DNA from: Amycolatopsis sp. FBCC-B4732
Lineage (GTDB): Bacteria > Actinomycetota > Actinomycetes > Mycobacteriales > Pseudonocardiaceae
Assembly: GCF_023008405.1 (NCBI RefSeq)
Contig: NZ_CP095376.1
Span: forward strand, 8,474,501-8,538,500
Direction: 5' to 3'
Length of the DNA stretch: 64,000 bases
In this document: one piece after another, positions 6,284 through 10,076 of the stretch
How the letters are laid out: each line of letters starts with the position of its first letter
Numbering within the stretch: the stretch's first letter is position 1
Notes under the pieces: generated by a model
What the model was told of the DNA's origin: nothing
What the model saw: the letters and a program-made list of their open reading frames with translations, nothing else
Database searches by the model: none
Program-made: the position numbers and the translations under genes

Positions 6284-6601
6284 GTGCCTGTCTACGACCC
6301 GGACTCGATGGCCATCGCGGCCCGCAACGTGGAGAAGCTGAAGGACGAGTTCGAGAAGTCGAAGAAGCATCTCACCGGGGTCGACGACGAGAAGGAAAGC
6401 CCCTTCGGCACGATGGGTGGTTCCCAGGACGTGCACGGCGCGGTCGGCGAGTTCAAACACGGCGTGCACTCCGAATTCGACGCGGCCGGGAAGCTGATGG
6501 AGGCGACCAGTTTCGTCTTGAAGAAGGCCGCCGGGCTGATCGCCGAAGCCGATCAGGTCGGGGCGAGCGACCTCAAGCTGCACGAACACGGGAACCAGTG
6601 A
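6284..6601 (+). CDS. Small helical protein upstream of the WXG100-transglycosylase
   Basis: A 105-residue, charged, mostly alpha-helical protein with no signal peptide or membrane segment. It begins VYDPDSMAIAARNVEKL and has a predicted helix - Gly-rich turn (GTMGGS) - helix layout like ESX-type proteins, but lacks a clear WXG. The GTG start is preceded by GAAGGGGATG. The gene sits 46 bp upstream of the WXG100-transglycosylase gene, so the two are probably co-transcribed, and I infer it may be its secretion partner. No specific family was recognised with confidence. Confidence 0.6.
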   Translation: MPVYDPDSMAIAARNVEKLKDEFEKSKKHLTGVDDEKESPFGTMGGSQDVHGAVGEFKHGVHSEFDAAGKLMEATSFVLKKAAGLIAEADQVGASDLKLHEHGNQ

Positions 6602-6647
6602 GCGCGTGGACGGCCTTGTGGGGCCTGGATGACAAGGGGGCGGCACT

Positions 6648-8882
6648 GTGGCTGGGCTGATCGACTTTCCGCCGAACTGGCCGGACATCGAGGCCAAGAA
6701 GAAGCAGGTCGACGGCATCAAGCCGGAGTCGATCGAAAAGGCGGCCCAGCAGTTCAAGACCGCCGCCACGCAGGCCGGTGACCACGGCGCTGCCCTGAAG
6801 TCGGCTACGGACTCGCTGTCCGCCGGCGTCTGGAAAGGCCCGGCCGCGGACGCGTTCGTCGGCTACGTGAAGCAGATCACCACCGCGGGTGACAAGGTGC
6901 AGACGCACCTCACCGACGTCGGCAACGACCTCAGTGCGCTGTCGTCGCAGTTGAGCGACATCAAGGGCAAGGTCAACGACGCCTACGAAACCGCGAAGAC
7001 GGCGATCCAGAACCGCATCAACGCGGAGACCCCCAAGGCGCAGGCCGCGATGAACGCCGAGGCCGAACACGCGAGGGACGAGCAAAAGCCCGCGCCGAGC
7101 CCGTCGTCGAAGGAAATCGTCGACAACGCCAACAAGGCGAACCTGAACGACGCCACCACCGCGCTCGGGAAGATCGACCCGCTGCTCTCGAGCGCGGACG
7201 ACCTGGTCAAGAAGTCCCAGGCGCTGATGAAGACCCAGATCGAGGGCGGTTATTCGAAGGTTCCGCTGCCCAACAGCGACGGCACCGTTCCGCAGAGCAC
7301 CGGCGGCATCCACAGCAACGGCTCCTCCCACCACGGCGGTGGTGGCGGAGGCGGCGGTGGTGGCGGCGGAGGCGGTGGCGGTGGTGGCCTCGGCCCCAGC
7401 GGTGGCCCGCCCTCCTCGCCGCCCCCGGGCAACGTCCAGCAGTGGATCCAGGAAGCCATCAAGGCCCTGCAGGCCGCCGGGGTGCCGGTCACCGACGCGG
7501 ACATCCCCAACATCTGGGCGATCATCCAGCACGAGTCGGGCGGGAATCCCAATGCCATCAACAACTGGGACTGCGTACCGCTGGACACGCAGATCCTGAC
7601 CAGGCGCGGTGTCCTGAAGCACAACGCGGTCGAAGTCGGCGACGAGACGATCGGCTTCAACCCGGCCACCGGGCGGAGCGAGTGGACGCGGATCACCCGG
7701 GTCGTCCACCACGAAGACGCCGCGCTGGTGCGGATGAGCAACTCCCGGTGGCAGGCGACCACCACGCCGAACCACCGCTGGCTCACCCTGCCGCGCGTCC
7801 ACGTTCGGCGCACCGACCTGCCGGTGATCTGCCCGGAGTGCGGCTGGGCGCCGGGTGCGGCACAGCAGCCGGAGAACGGTGTGGCGGTACACCGGCGCAA
7901 GAAGCACGGTTTCGTCTCGCCGAAGCAGGAGAACCGGCACGCGGCCGAGGCGCGCTTCGTCACGACCGAAGACGTCGGGTCACGCGACCGGATCCTCCTG
8001 GCGGCGCCCGCGGCGACCGGATCGGCGCTCGAGATCAGCGTGGCGGAAGCCGCCATCCTCGGCTGGATCGCCGGTGACGGGCACGTCGAGACCAGGCGGC
8101 ACCGCCCGACCATGTCCATCGCGCAGTCGAAGCCCGAAATGGTGGAGAAGCTCCGCGACCTCCTCGACGGTGTACCGCACGCGGTCTACGTCGATGACCG
8201 TGGTGGGTGCGGGCCCCGGCACCAGTTCCGGCTGGACCACGACTACGCCCAGGACCTGCTGGCCAGGGCGGGCCACCCCAAGTCCGATGCGGTCGCTCAG
8301 ATCCTGTCGATGTCCGCCGAGCAGCGTGCGGCGTGGCTCGAAGCGATCGTCGACGCCGAGGGCACCCAGTACACGCGGCCCGGCTACTCGAAGCCGCAGG
8401 TGGTCGTCTACCAGGCGCCGGGCGCGGTCCTCGAGGCGATCGCACTGGCCGGTTACCTGTCCGGGACGCGGCCTCGGGTGCTCCCGGTCAACCGGACGAA
8501 CCAGCCGGAGACCTGGCGCCAGGAAGCCGTCGTGCACTTCAACAACCCGATCGTCACGGGAGCTTTCCTGCGGAAGGAAGCCGCCGGGCGGGCAGACGTG
8601 TGGTGCGTGACGACCGAACTGGGCACGTGGACGGCTCAGGAGGGTGATCACCTCTTCCTGACCGGCAACTCCAATGCCGCCGCCGGGCACCCGTCCAAGG
8701 GGCTCATGCAGTGCATCGACTCGACGTTCAACGCGCACAAGCTGCCCGGGCACGACAACATCTACAACCCGGTCGACAACATCATCGCGGGTGTCCGGTA
8801 CTCCTACGACCGCTACGGCGGCCTCGGGAACGTGCCCGGCATCAAGGCCATGGCCCACGGCGGTGCCTACCAGGGCTACTAG
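6648..8882 (+). CDS. WXG100-lytic transglycosylase precursor interrupted by an intein
   Basis: A 744-residue precursor. Residues 1-~200 form a WXG100 helical domain with VWKG at about 61-64, the hallmark of type VII secretion targets. An 18-residue glycine tract follows, then a transglycosylase SLT domain that starts at about 265 with the catalytic-type Glu296 in HESGG. At residue 309 a 366-residue intein interrupts the SLT domain; the downstream extein resumes SNAAAGHPSKGLMQ and runs to the end. After splicing the product would be 378 residues. It probably cleaves peptidoglycan strands outside the membrane. GTG 6648 is preceded by a weak purine run. It follows the small helical gene and precedes an unrelated aminotransferase. 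Confidence 0.88.
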   Translation: MAGLIDFPPNWPDIEAKKKQVDGIKPESIEKAAQQFKTAATQAGDHGAALKSATDSLSAGVWKGPAADAFVGYVKQITTAGDKVQTHLTDVGNDLSALSSQLSDIKGKVNDAYETAKTAIQNRINAETPKAQAAMNAEAEHARDEQKPAPSPSSKEIVDNANKANLNDATTALGKIDPLLSSADDLVKKSQALMKTQIEGGYSKVPLPNSDGTVPQSTGGIHSNGSSHHGGGGGGGGGGGGGGGGGGLGPSGGPPSSPPPGNVQQWIQEAIKALQAAGVPVTDADIPNIWAIIQHESGGNPNAINNWDCVPLDTQILTRRGVLKHNAVEVGDETIGFNPATGRSEWTRITRVVHHEDAALVRMSNSRWQATTTPNHRWLTLPRVHVRRTDLPVICPECGWAPGAAQQPENGVAVHRRKKHGFVSPKQENRHAAEARFVTTEDVGSRDRILLAAPAATGSALEISVAEAAILGWIAGDGHVETRRHRPTMSIAQSKPEMVEKLRDLLDGVPHAVYVDDRGGCGPRHQFRLDHDYAQDLLARAGHPKSDAVAQILSMSAEQRAAWLEAIVDAEGTQYTRPGYSKPQVVVYQAPGAVLEAIALAGYLSGTRPRVLPVNRTNQPETWRQEAVVHFNNPIVTGAFLRKEAAGRADVWCVTTELGTWTAQEGDHLFLTGNSNAAAGHPSKGLMQCIDSTFNAHKLPGHDNIYNPVDNIIAGVRYSYDRYGGLGNVPGIKAMAHGGAYQGY
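7335..7388 (+). repeat. Glycine-codon tract, 18 consecutive Gly
   Basis: GGN codons are repeated 18 times with mixed third bases. They form a flexible linker between the WXG100 domain and the transglycosylase domain, right after a His-His pair. The varied codons argue for selection on the peptide rather than simple slippage. Confidence 0.9.
7572..8669 (+). other. Intein with LAGLIDADG endonuclease inside the SLT domain
   Basis: This in-frame 366-residue insert begins with Cys1 (CVPLDTQILTRRG, block A) and ends LFLTGN, followed by extein Ser+1. Block B is TTTPNH at about 63-68. Two LAGLIDADG-type motifs are visible: AILGWIAGDGHV at about 161-172 and LEAIVDAEG at about 256-264, both keeping an acidic catalytic residue. 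Block F is VWCVTTELGTW near 343-353. The penultimate residue is Gly rather than the usual His. A Cys-X2-Cys-X16-His-X4-His pattern at 87-112 looks like a zinc finger. The insertion site lies 12 residues after the catalytic-type Glu of the host domain. Removing it restores a continuous SLT sequence, NNWD then SNAAAGHPSKGLMQ. Confidence 0.92.
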
Positions 8883-8897
8883 AACTAGCCTGGCCGC

Positions 8898-10076
8898 ATG
8901 GTCGACCTCGGAGCCTTCGCCGGTCCCGCGCTGCGGGCCGGTGTGCCGCCCTTCCACGTCATGGACGTCCTCTCCGCGGCCGGTGCGCGGCAGCGGAGTC
9001 ACGGTGATCTCGTGTCGCTCGCGGCCGGGCAGCCGTCCGCGCCCGCGCCGCGACCCGTGCTGGAGGCCGCGGCGAAAGCGCTGCAGGACAGCACCCTCGG
9101 CTACACCGAACAGCTCGGCATCCCCGAGCTGCGCGAGGCTGTGGCCGGGCACTACCGGCAGCGGTACGACGTCGACGTCCAGGCGCACGACGTCGTCCTG
9201 ACCACCGGGTCCTCCGGGGGCTTCCTGCTCGCTTTCCTCAGCGCCTTCGACTCCGGCGCCAAGGTCGCGATGGCGCGGCCCGGCTACCCGGCCTACCGCA
9301 ACCTGCTCTCCGTCCTGGGCTGCGAGGTCGTCGAGTTCGCCACCACCGCGGAGACGAACTTCCAGCCCACCGTCGGCCTGCTCGACGAGCTCGGTCCGAT
9401 CGACGGCCTGATCGTCGCCAGCCCGAGCAACCCGACCGGGACCGTGCTGCCGCCCGGGGAGCTCGCCGCCATCACCGGGTGGTGCGCGTCGCACGGCGTG
9501 CAGCTGATCAGCGACGAGATCTACCACGGCATCTCCTACGGCGCCGAGCTCGACTGCGCGTGGCAGTACGGGCGCGAGCCGATCGTGCTCGGCAGCTTCT
9601 CCAAGTACTTCGCGATGACCGGCTGGCGGCTCGGGTGGCTGCTCGCGCCGCAGCGCCTCCACCGCGCGATCGACGTCCTGACCGGCAACTTCACCATCTG
9701 CCCGCCCGCCGTCTCGCAGTACGCGGCGCTGGCCGCCTTCACGCCCGAGGCGTACGCGGAGGCCGACGCGCACGTCGAGCGGTACCGCGCCAACCGCGAC
9801 CGGCTCTTCGCCGGCCTGCGGCGCATCGGCCTGACCGAGCTCGCGCCCGCGGACGGCGCCTTCTACGCGTACGCCGACGTCAGCGCGTACACCGGGGACA
9901 GCCTGAGCTGGTGCCAGCGGTTGCTCGCCGACACCGGCCTCGCGATCACCCCCGGCGTCGACTTCGACCCGGTCGACGGCGGCAAGTACGTGCGGTTCTC
10001 CTTCGCCGGCAGCGCCGAGGACATCGACGAAGGCGTCCGGCGGCTCGGCGCGTGGCTCGGCCAGGGGGAACCCTGA
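8898..10076 (+). CDS. PLP-dependent class I/II aminotransferase
   Basis: A 392-residue cytosolic aminotransferase of fold type I. Motifs in order: GQPSAPAP and YTEQLGIPELREAVA near the N-terminus, ASPSNPTGT (substrate carboxylate region), SDEIYHGISY, and SFSKYFAMTGWRLGW with the PLP-binding Lys, then a C-terminal Arg segment VRFSFAG. Its length fits the family. The ATG lies 6 nt after TAGCCT (8886-8891), which fits a leaderless transcript starting at the ATG, only 15 bp after the previous stop. The amino-donor substrate cannot be told from sequence alone; an aspartate or branched-chain type role is possible. Confidence 0.88.
   Translation: MVDLGAFAGPALRAGVPPFHVMDVLSAAGARQRSHGDLVSLAAGQPSAPAPRPVLEAAAKALQDSTLGYTEQLGIPELREAVAGHYRQRYDVDVQAHDVVLTTGSSGGFLLAFLSAFDSGAKVAMARPGYPAYRNLLSVLGCEVVEFATTAETNFQPTVGLLDELGPIDGLIVASPSNPTGTVLPPGELAAITGWCASHGVQLISDEIYHGISYGAELDCAWQYGREPIVLGSFSKYFAMTGWRLGWLLAPQRLHRAIDVLTGNFTICPPAVSQYAALAAFTPEAYAEADAHVERYRANRDRLFAGLRRIGLTELAPADGAFYAYADVSAYTGDSLSWCQRLLADTGLAITPGVDFDPVDGGKYVRFSFAGSAEDIDEGVRRLGAWLGQGEP

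Follow-up and report, generated by a model that had tools for sequence, protein, structure and literature searches.

A putative LAGLIDADG intein within the transglycosylase domain of an Amycolatopsis WXG100 protein, with relatives in viral genes

The actinomycete Amycolatopsis sp. FBCC-B4732 carries, within a stretch of 64,000 nucleotides (NZ_CP095376.1, positions 8,474,501 to 8,538,500 of the forward strand; the window, whose numbering is used below), a gene that combines a WXG100 domain with an SLT (lytic transglycosylase) domain, and the SLT domain is interrupted by an in-frame insert of 366 codons that has the anatomy of a LAGLIDADG intein. The gene and its parts are as follows.

6648..8882, + strand, stop codon included: precursor gene, 744 amino acids, GTG start; WXG100 domain, glycine-rich linker, and SLT domain holding the intein
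6648..7571, + strand: N-extein, 308 amino acids, ending in ...HESGGNPNAINNWD; placed by BLASTP against an intein-free protein
6717..6959, + strand: WXG100 domain, residues 24-104 (PF06013, E 5.9e-11)
7533..7535, + strand: catalytic-type Glu296 of the SLT domain, invariant in alignments of intein-bearing (56 rows) and intein-free (48 rows) proteins
7572..8669, + strand: intein, 366 amino acids, inside the SLT domain; delimited by sequence blocks, fold model and empty-site homologs
7572..7574, + strand: Cys1, class 1-type nucleophile, in 90 of 94 aligned family members
7764..7781, + strand: block B, TPNHRW (TPNH being intein residues 65-68), with His68 (B:10) and Trp70 (B:12, class 3 triplet), both in 94 of 94
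7830..7907, + strand: CxxC...H...H zinc-finger-like module, intein residues 87-112, missing in about one fifth of relatives at the same site
8058..8084, + strand: LAGLIDADG motif 1, LGWIAGDGH, intein residues 163-171, with Asp169
8331..8363, + strand: LAGLIDADG motif 2, AWLEAIVDAEG, intein residues 254-264, with Glu263
8598..8636, + strand: block F, VWCVTTELGTWTA, with Cys345 at F:4 (class 3 triplet), in 93 of 94
8649..8669, + strand: block G, HLFLTGN, with Thr364 (G:5, class 3 triplet), Gly365 and Asn366, each in 93 of 94
8670..8879, + strand: C-extein, 70 amino acids, beginning with Ser+1; it holds the second half of the SLT domain, including the GLMQ motif (+11 to +14)

Both host domains are recognised in the precursor, PF06013 scoring 42.9 bits against a curated cut-off of 27.3 and PF01464 (SLT) 41.5 bits (E 1.1e-10) against 21.3, with the catalytic Glu and the GLMQ motif in place. 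The NCBIfam model TIGR03930 reaches 37.7 bits, below its cut-off of 44.85, and the protein is therefore classed as a WXG100-domain protein and not as a TIGR03930 ESAT-6-type member. For the intein-free form there is a weak sequence match to the endo-type lytic murein transglycosylase 2y8p (E 0.058). A structure search with an intein-free homolog gave no match in the PDB at E 0.001; it listed helical bundles, including PPE proteins at E 0.05, and in the predicted model of the intein-free form the active-site loop has a predicted local distance difference test (pLDDT) score of 52-67.

A preliminary description of this DNA had recognised a complete intein at 7572-8669, placed 12 residues after Glu296 and leaving exteins of 378 residues in total, and this much is borne out: Cys1, TPNH, both LAGLIDADG motifs, the terminal Asn366 and Ser+1 were all found, blocks A, B, F and G stand together with the C-terminal Asn and a +1 nucleophile, and realignment of the family retains the splicing residues in 90 to 94 of 94 rows. 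The endonuclease part has its two motifs with acidic residues D169 and E263, and PF14528 (LAGLIDADG_3) matches the precursor above its cut-off (E 2.9e-6). No intein model of Pfam or NCBIfam matched the window, and of 28 family members LAGLIDADG_3 matched 14 and TIGR01445 one. A PDB search with the single intein sequence was not convincing (best E 0.3); a profile search gave a convincing match, and the AlphaFold model of the intein, a confident one (pLDDT 89), has the HINT fold and matches experimentally solved inteins over its whole length, Cys1 to Asn366, with structures of bacterial intein-like (BIL) domains also among the matches.

The preliminary description amounts to a class 1 intein, which holds as far as Cys1 is concerned, but it had overlooked a full class 3 triplet, Trp-B:12/Cys-F:4/Thr-G:5, that coexists with Cys1 in the same intein (position scheme as given in PMC5222942 and PMC3196547). 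According to PMC4031507, Cys is the second commonest residue at F:4 among inteins generally; it is the triplet as a combination that marks class 3. The usual sequence criterion for class 3 is a position 1 without a nucleophile, and the presence of Cys1 is the reason why the intein is not filed there. Among the 84 rows labelled as occupying the same insertion site (WD|SN, referred to below as S1), which include one mislabelled row, P0116, Cys1 and the triplet are each present in 84, so neither nucleophile appears dispensable. The intein combines class 1 and class 3 signatures and is assigned to neither class; either Cys1 or Cys345 may start splicing.

Selection on the gene was considered through ratios of nonsynonymous to synonymous substitution (dN/dS). 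These are 0.13-0.30 for the endonuclease core, 0.08-0.37 for the splicing part and 0.00-0.50 for the C-extein, values indicating purifying selection, whereas the N-extein (0.31-0.88) is less constrained than the endonuclease core. One could argue from the weaker constraint on the N-extein, and from the penultimate residue of the intein, where Gly365 replaces the usual His, that splicing has been lost and the gene broken, the more so as the evidence for activity comes from sequence only. Yet every catalytic residue is present, Gly is the family norm at the penultimate position (93 of 94), a naturally occurring penultimate Gly is described for the splicing RDF intein of phage Bethlehem (PMC5050341), the splicing part and C-extein are under purifying selection, and no stop codons occur in the precursor reading frame. 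A non-splicing relic is therefore extremely improbable.

The insert has exact empty sites. In a BLASTP comparison with the intein-free Amycolatopsis protein P0123, precursor residues 4-309 and 674-744 align with residues 3-312 and 311-381, the two blocks meeting at the junction. An alignment of 48 intein-free homologs has D311, S312 and N313 side by side in every row, reading directly across the D|S junction. The SLT sequence is thus continuous once the insert is removed, as had been claimed, and the catalytic Glu and the GLMQ motif are likewise invariant in these 48 proteins. A length-limited search for the intein-free class, whose limit excludes full-length intein forms, found 1797 relatives, and among the 120 listed only P0053 and P0061, recognised by identity and length, carry an intein. 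Within the genus, 8 of 35 genomes have the intein, 26 have abutting exteins (judged by coordinates, 21 of them also checked at the sequence level) and one (G011) has only a C-terminal fragment, so that the intein is the minority state, present in 8 of the 34 genomes having the gene. Loci L003 and L011 differ in intein presence while their extein DNA is 96.5% (N) and 98.6% (C) identical; this difference is a recent gain or loss of the intein.

Decay of the endonuclease is visible in the same set of S1 rows. The splicing residues are invariant, and both LAGLIDADG acids are kept in 74 of 84 rows, which means that endonuclease residues have decayed in about one eighth; the zinc-finger-like module is missing in roughly 17 of the 84, and the shortest intein has 227 residues. 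The window holds a copy of the full type. The classical homing cycle consists of invasion, decay and loss, and the side-by-side occurrence of full, decaying and empty alleles resembles it; empty, full-length and endonuclease-decayed alleles in or near one genus offer a good natural series for studying that cycle.

The insert is thus very probably a mobile, phage-associated LAGLIDADG intein lodged in a chromosomal WXG100-SLT gene, an element that homes into wall-hydrolase genes and splices out of their products. What computation shows in its favour is a complete intein anatomy, exact empty sites, an intein fold whose ends coincide with those of the insert, constraint by purifying selection, a patchy distribution, and a correspondence between insertion site and intein lineage across viral and bacterial hosts; the element is a genuine intein, probably active and mobile, and its host unusual but not unique. 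Most likely the endonuclease would cut SLT alleles that lack the intein, at the conserved codons ...AINNWD|SN..., repair of the cut allele would copy the intein in, and after translation the intein would excise itself and join the SLT halves, so that the host would retain a normal enzyme. A phage would be the source of the element, and the spliced protein would be secreted and act on the cell wall.

Since the insert comes between the catalytic Glu and the GLMQ motif, neither of which varies in the 48 intein-free homologs, the unspliced precursor is plausibly inactive. From such inactivity the preliminary description derived a regulatory role, in which slow or conditional splicing would hold the hydrolase harmless in the cytosol and activate it around export. 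The conserved C1 and C345 could render splicing thiol-sensitive, and a mycobacterial DnaB intein has been proposed as an oxidative stress sensor (PMC6195587). The gene does without the intein, however, in 26 of the 35 genus genomes and in one of the two nearly identical alleles L003 and L011, so any regulation by the intein is dispensable, and patchy presence together with an endonuclease under selection is what a homing element would display. The proposal of a switch before export is accordingly not upheld, and such a role seems very improbable.

The window intein belongs to a family with relatives in both bacterial and viral genes. A protein search that scored 7999 candidates found 164 relatives, and of the best 120, which were listed, 27 are incomplete or without clear bounds (among them P0118, a metagenomic GH5 cellulase-domain protein whose intein boundaries are not cleanly set). 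A genome scan based on one short peptide pattern gave 12 loci and a viral scan 31 loci with the family. Carriage on plasmids was considered and set aside, as a tblastn search of 72,556 plasmid records gave no match to the intein. The 138 readable rows, which are not independent because some genes are present under two names, comprise 83 at S1, 4 at S1b (two residues earlier), 11 at S2 (directly after GLMQ/GIPQ), 13 at S3 (directly after the catalytic Glu) and 27 elsewhere. These last consist of 9 labelled DNA polymerase I (5 of them scanned), 5 near the C-terminal end of lysozyme-like domains, 3 proteins of unknown family, P0048, a Gordonia phage tape measure, and 8 partial open reading frames. 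A wall-hydrolase host would be unusual by the known lists of inteins, and the preliminary description had said as much; this stands for those lists, but 17 of the 31 viral loci have the intein at S1, S1b, S2 or S3, and a further 8 have it in polymerase hosts.

Besides bacterial WXG100-SLT proteins, tape-measure-like proteins of phages serve as hosts. In a PHROGs scan of 8 proteins a tape-measure family was the best or second-best match for 6, and for P0117 and P0119 the best match was a family of unknown function and the second a transglycosylase family. Among seven viral proteins scanned, L046, L047 and L055 match tape measures strongly and L051 and L064 weakly, and L061 and L065 matched neither a Pfam nor a PHROGs family. 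The latter two (L061:1-2478 and L065:3203-4969), as well as L062, are viral hosts interrupted by this intein family at ...|SGWD....

On a quick tree of 115 rows (23 of the 138 were dropped, being 14 duplicates or close relatives, 8 partial open reading frames and one too-short intein), most S1 rows form a single clade of 75 (support 98) that unites bacterial WXG100 proteins with the viral L046 and L047, three S1-labelled rows lying outside it. The bacterial WXG100-SLT hosts have the intein at S1 and, in P0101, P0102 and P0104, at S2; these S2 rows share a clade of 11 (support 100) with L050 and L055, which are viral S2 rows, and with S3 rows, four further viral S2 rows being placed elsewhere. 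The intein directly after GLMQ in P0101, P0102 and P0104 would represent a separate invasion of the WXG100-SLT gene family. Site labels change 8 times on the intein tree, as against at least 18 in 2000 shuffles, and site-specific movement among hosts with a common enzyme domain is a simple account of this. Phages and their hosts carry the same enzyme domain and so present a similar target, a testable exchange route, which suggests that related inserts move, in one direction or the other, between phages and bacteria through that target; the deep joins of the tree are unsafe, with their long branches. It is very improbable that, beyond this, the family is a dedicated clan shuttling between phage tape-measure proteins and bacterial WXG100 hydrolases at conserved SLT codons whose thiol-dependent splicing, through Cys1 and Cys-F:4, gates hydrolase activity until the protein leaves or has left the cytosol.

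Movement of the intein within the genus can be judged against the gene's two neighbours.

6284..6601, + strand: 105-amino-acid protein of unknown family, the immediate upstream neighbour, adjoining the gene in 37 of 41 compared loci
8898..10076, + strand: class I/II aminotransferase, the downstream neighbour, used as chromosomal marker in the comparisons

Mapped on the N-extein tree (41 rows), presence of the intein requires a minimum of 8 changes; the aminotransferase tree (28 rows) requires a minimum of 6. The window intein is 84-86% identical to that of one clade whose N-exteins are only 60-61% identical to its own, whereas L003, L008 and L039 have N-exteins of 71-75% and inteins of 66-75% identity to the window, and the intein grouping and the N-extein grouping are each rejected by the other data set, the groupings having been chosen after the identities were seen. 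Judged by identity, the upstream neighbour goes with the N-extein, and the aminotransferase downstream goes with the intein. Within a few hundred bases ahead of the intein, still inside the gene, DNA identity to A. pretoriensis rises from 0.67 to 0.98; this break is explained either by homing with co-carried flanks or by replacement of the gene's 5' portion together with the neighbouring gene. The segments 6284-7571 and 8670-10076 of the window thus have different histories, with a recombination break inside the gene, perhaps through swapping of WXG100 modules.

Several observations weigh against the homing account. With the upstream gene and N-extein in one clade and the downstream gene in another, an exchange of the gene's 5' portion may have occurred instead, and the strong conflict between intein and N-extein trees is not clean proof of intein movement. 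The flank match to A. pretoriensis, which resembles co-conversion, is found in the C-extein of the empty allele L023 as well (0.98, 0.98, 0.87, 0.97), and that an empty allele should be nearly as close weakens the idea of homing with co-carried flanking DNA. The closest viral contig has an intein only 57% identical to that of the window, so that no close donor phage was found, and the best full-length match in a named phage is 30.5% identical; at the insertion site the window has 21 of 30 bases in common with two viral loci and 15 of 30 with a locus of Streptomyces. Moreover, the window intein groups with the clade of its downstream gene, which has a largely vertical look and fits a long-settled intein, one that would go back to a single gain in the genus followed by many losses and would neither be homing at present nor have been exchanged with phages recently. 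This overlaps with the homing account except in present mobility, and it is unlikely, though not far-fetched: the endonuclease core is still constrained; L025 and L026, the closest kin by the downstream gene, are both empty while the window is occupied, a point that stands independently of the tree conflict; and in P0101, P0102 and P0104 related inteins occupy a second site and cluster with viral inteins, which implies at least two entries into such genes.

Among known systems, the class 3 inteins of mycobacteriophages and mycobacteria in TerL and DnaB (PMC5050341, PMC3196547 and PMC5222942) have in common with the window intein the triplet, Ser/Thr at +1 and an association with phages; here, by contrast, Cys1 is near-invariant, the hosts include wall-hydrolase domains and the penultimate residue is Gly. 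The inteins in DNA polymerase I of E. coli phages (annotated in phage PaulScherrer, MZ501100) belong to the same wider family (tblastn identity 23-31%), but their host is a polymerase and they are distant from the window intein. The whole chain of the window intein model, splicing and endonuclease parts together, matches the fold of the PI-SceI (VMA) intein, which has an ATPase host and lacks the class 3 triplet. BIL domains, often found in secreted bacterial proteins, have the HINT fold in common with the window intein; unlike them, the latter has Ser+1, an endonuclease and empty-site homologs, BIL domains being without a +1 nucleophile according to PMC7664689.

The Gordonia phages Mcklovin and Twinkle provide the full-length relative of 30.5% identity, which has Cys1 and Asn followed by Ser+1 and a tape-measure host; their insert, at NADH|SDHVHW, lies elsewhere in the protein and outside the SLT domain. 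In both phages it occupies an annotated tape measure protein (Mcklovin, MN428055, L032:3001-4056; Twinkle, MK878902, 14915-15970), the Mcklovin junctions read NADH|C...N|SDHVHW, and the annotation rows seen hold no intein feature. Full-length relatives of the intein in L055, a viral S2 row, are about 26% identical to it and lie in phage genes annotated as DNA methylase or methyltransferase, for example in Mycobacterium phage Willsammy (MT024866, 36305-37303). Homing genes are reported to interrupt tape-measure genes of phages (PMC10448857).

Among the top-ranked papers of the open-licence literature none was found to describe an SLT or WXG100 protein with an intein, wall hydrolases, bacterial and viral, being a host type that the literature searches for inteins did not return. 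New in the present case are the joint class 1 and class 3 signature, the clustering of three insertion sites about a single active site, and a target common to viral and bacterial proteins. As an intein the element is ordinary; it is notable for its host and for the link between phage and bacterium, and its Cys1-plus-triplet signature would provide a clean test of class 1 against class 3 chemistry.

As to the host protein, type VII secretion of its spliced form would be expected from the WXG100 domain. Three EccC loci in the genome exceed the cut-off, as against none in 14 control genomes, and the nearest is about 1 Mb or more from the gene; with no EccC locus near the window, this is an orphan WXG100 gene whose export is inferred. 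The linker between the WXG100 and SLT parts contains 18 consecutive glycine codons (7335-7388). A local donor, such as a second SLT gene or a prophage copy, was considered and set aside: the gene is the only PF01464 match in its own genome at E 0.001, other lysozyme-like families not having been searched, and the intein is single-copy there. A defence-system reading was also dropped, neither the gene nor its upstream neighbour matching PADLOC. G+C content is similar in N-extein (0.67), intein (0.70) and C-extein (0.66), and nothing in the base composition points to a foreign origin in recent times. In Amycolatopsis sp. MtRt-6, scaffolds 1 and 47 carry identical 7098-base copies of the locus (L036 and L037), either a duplication or redundancy of the assembly.
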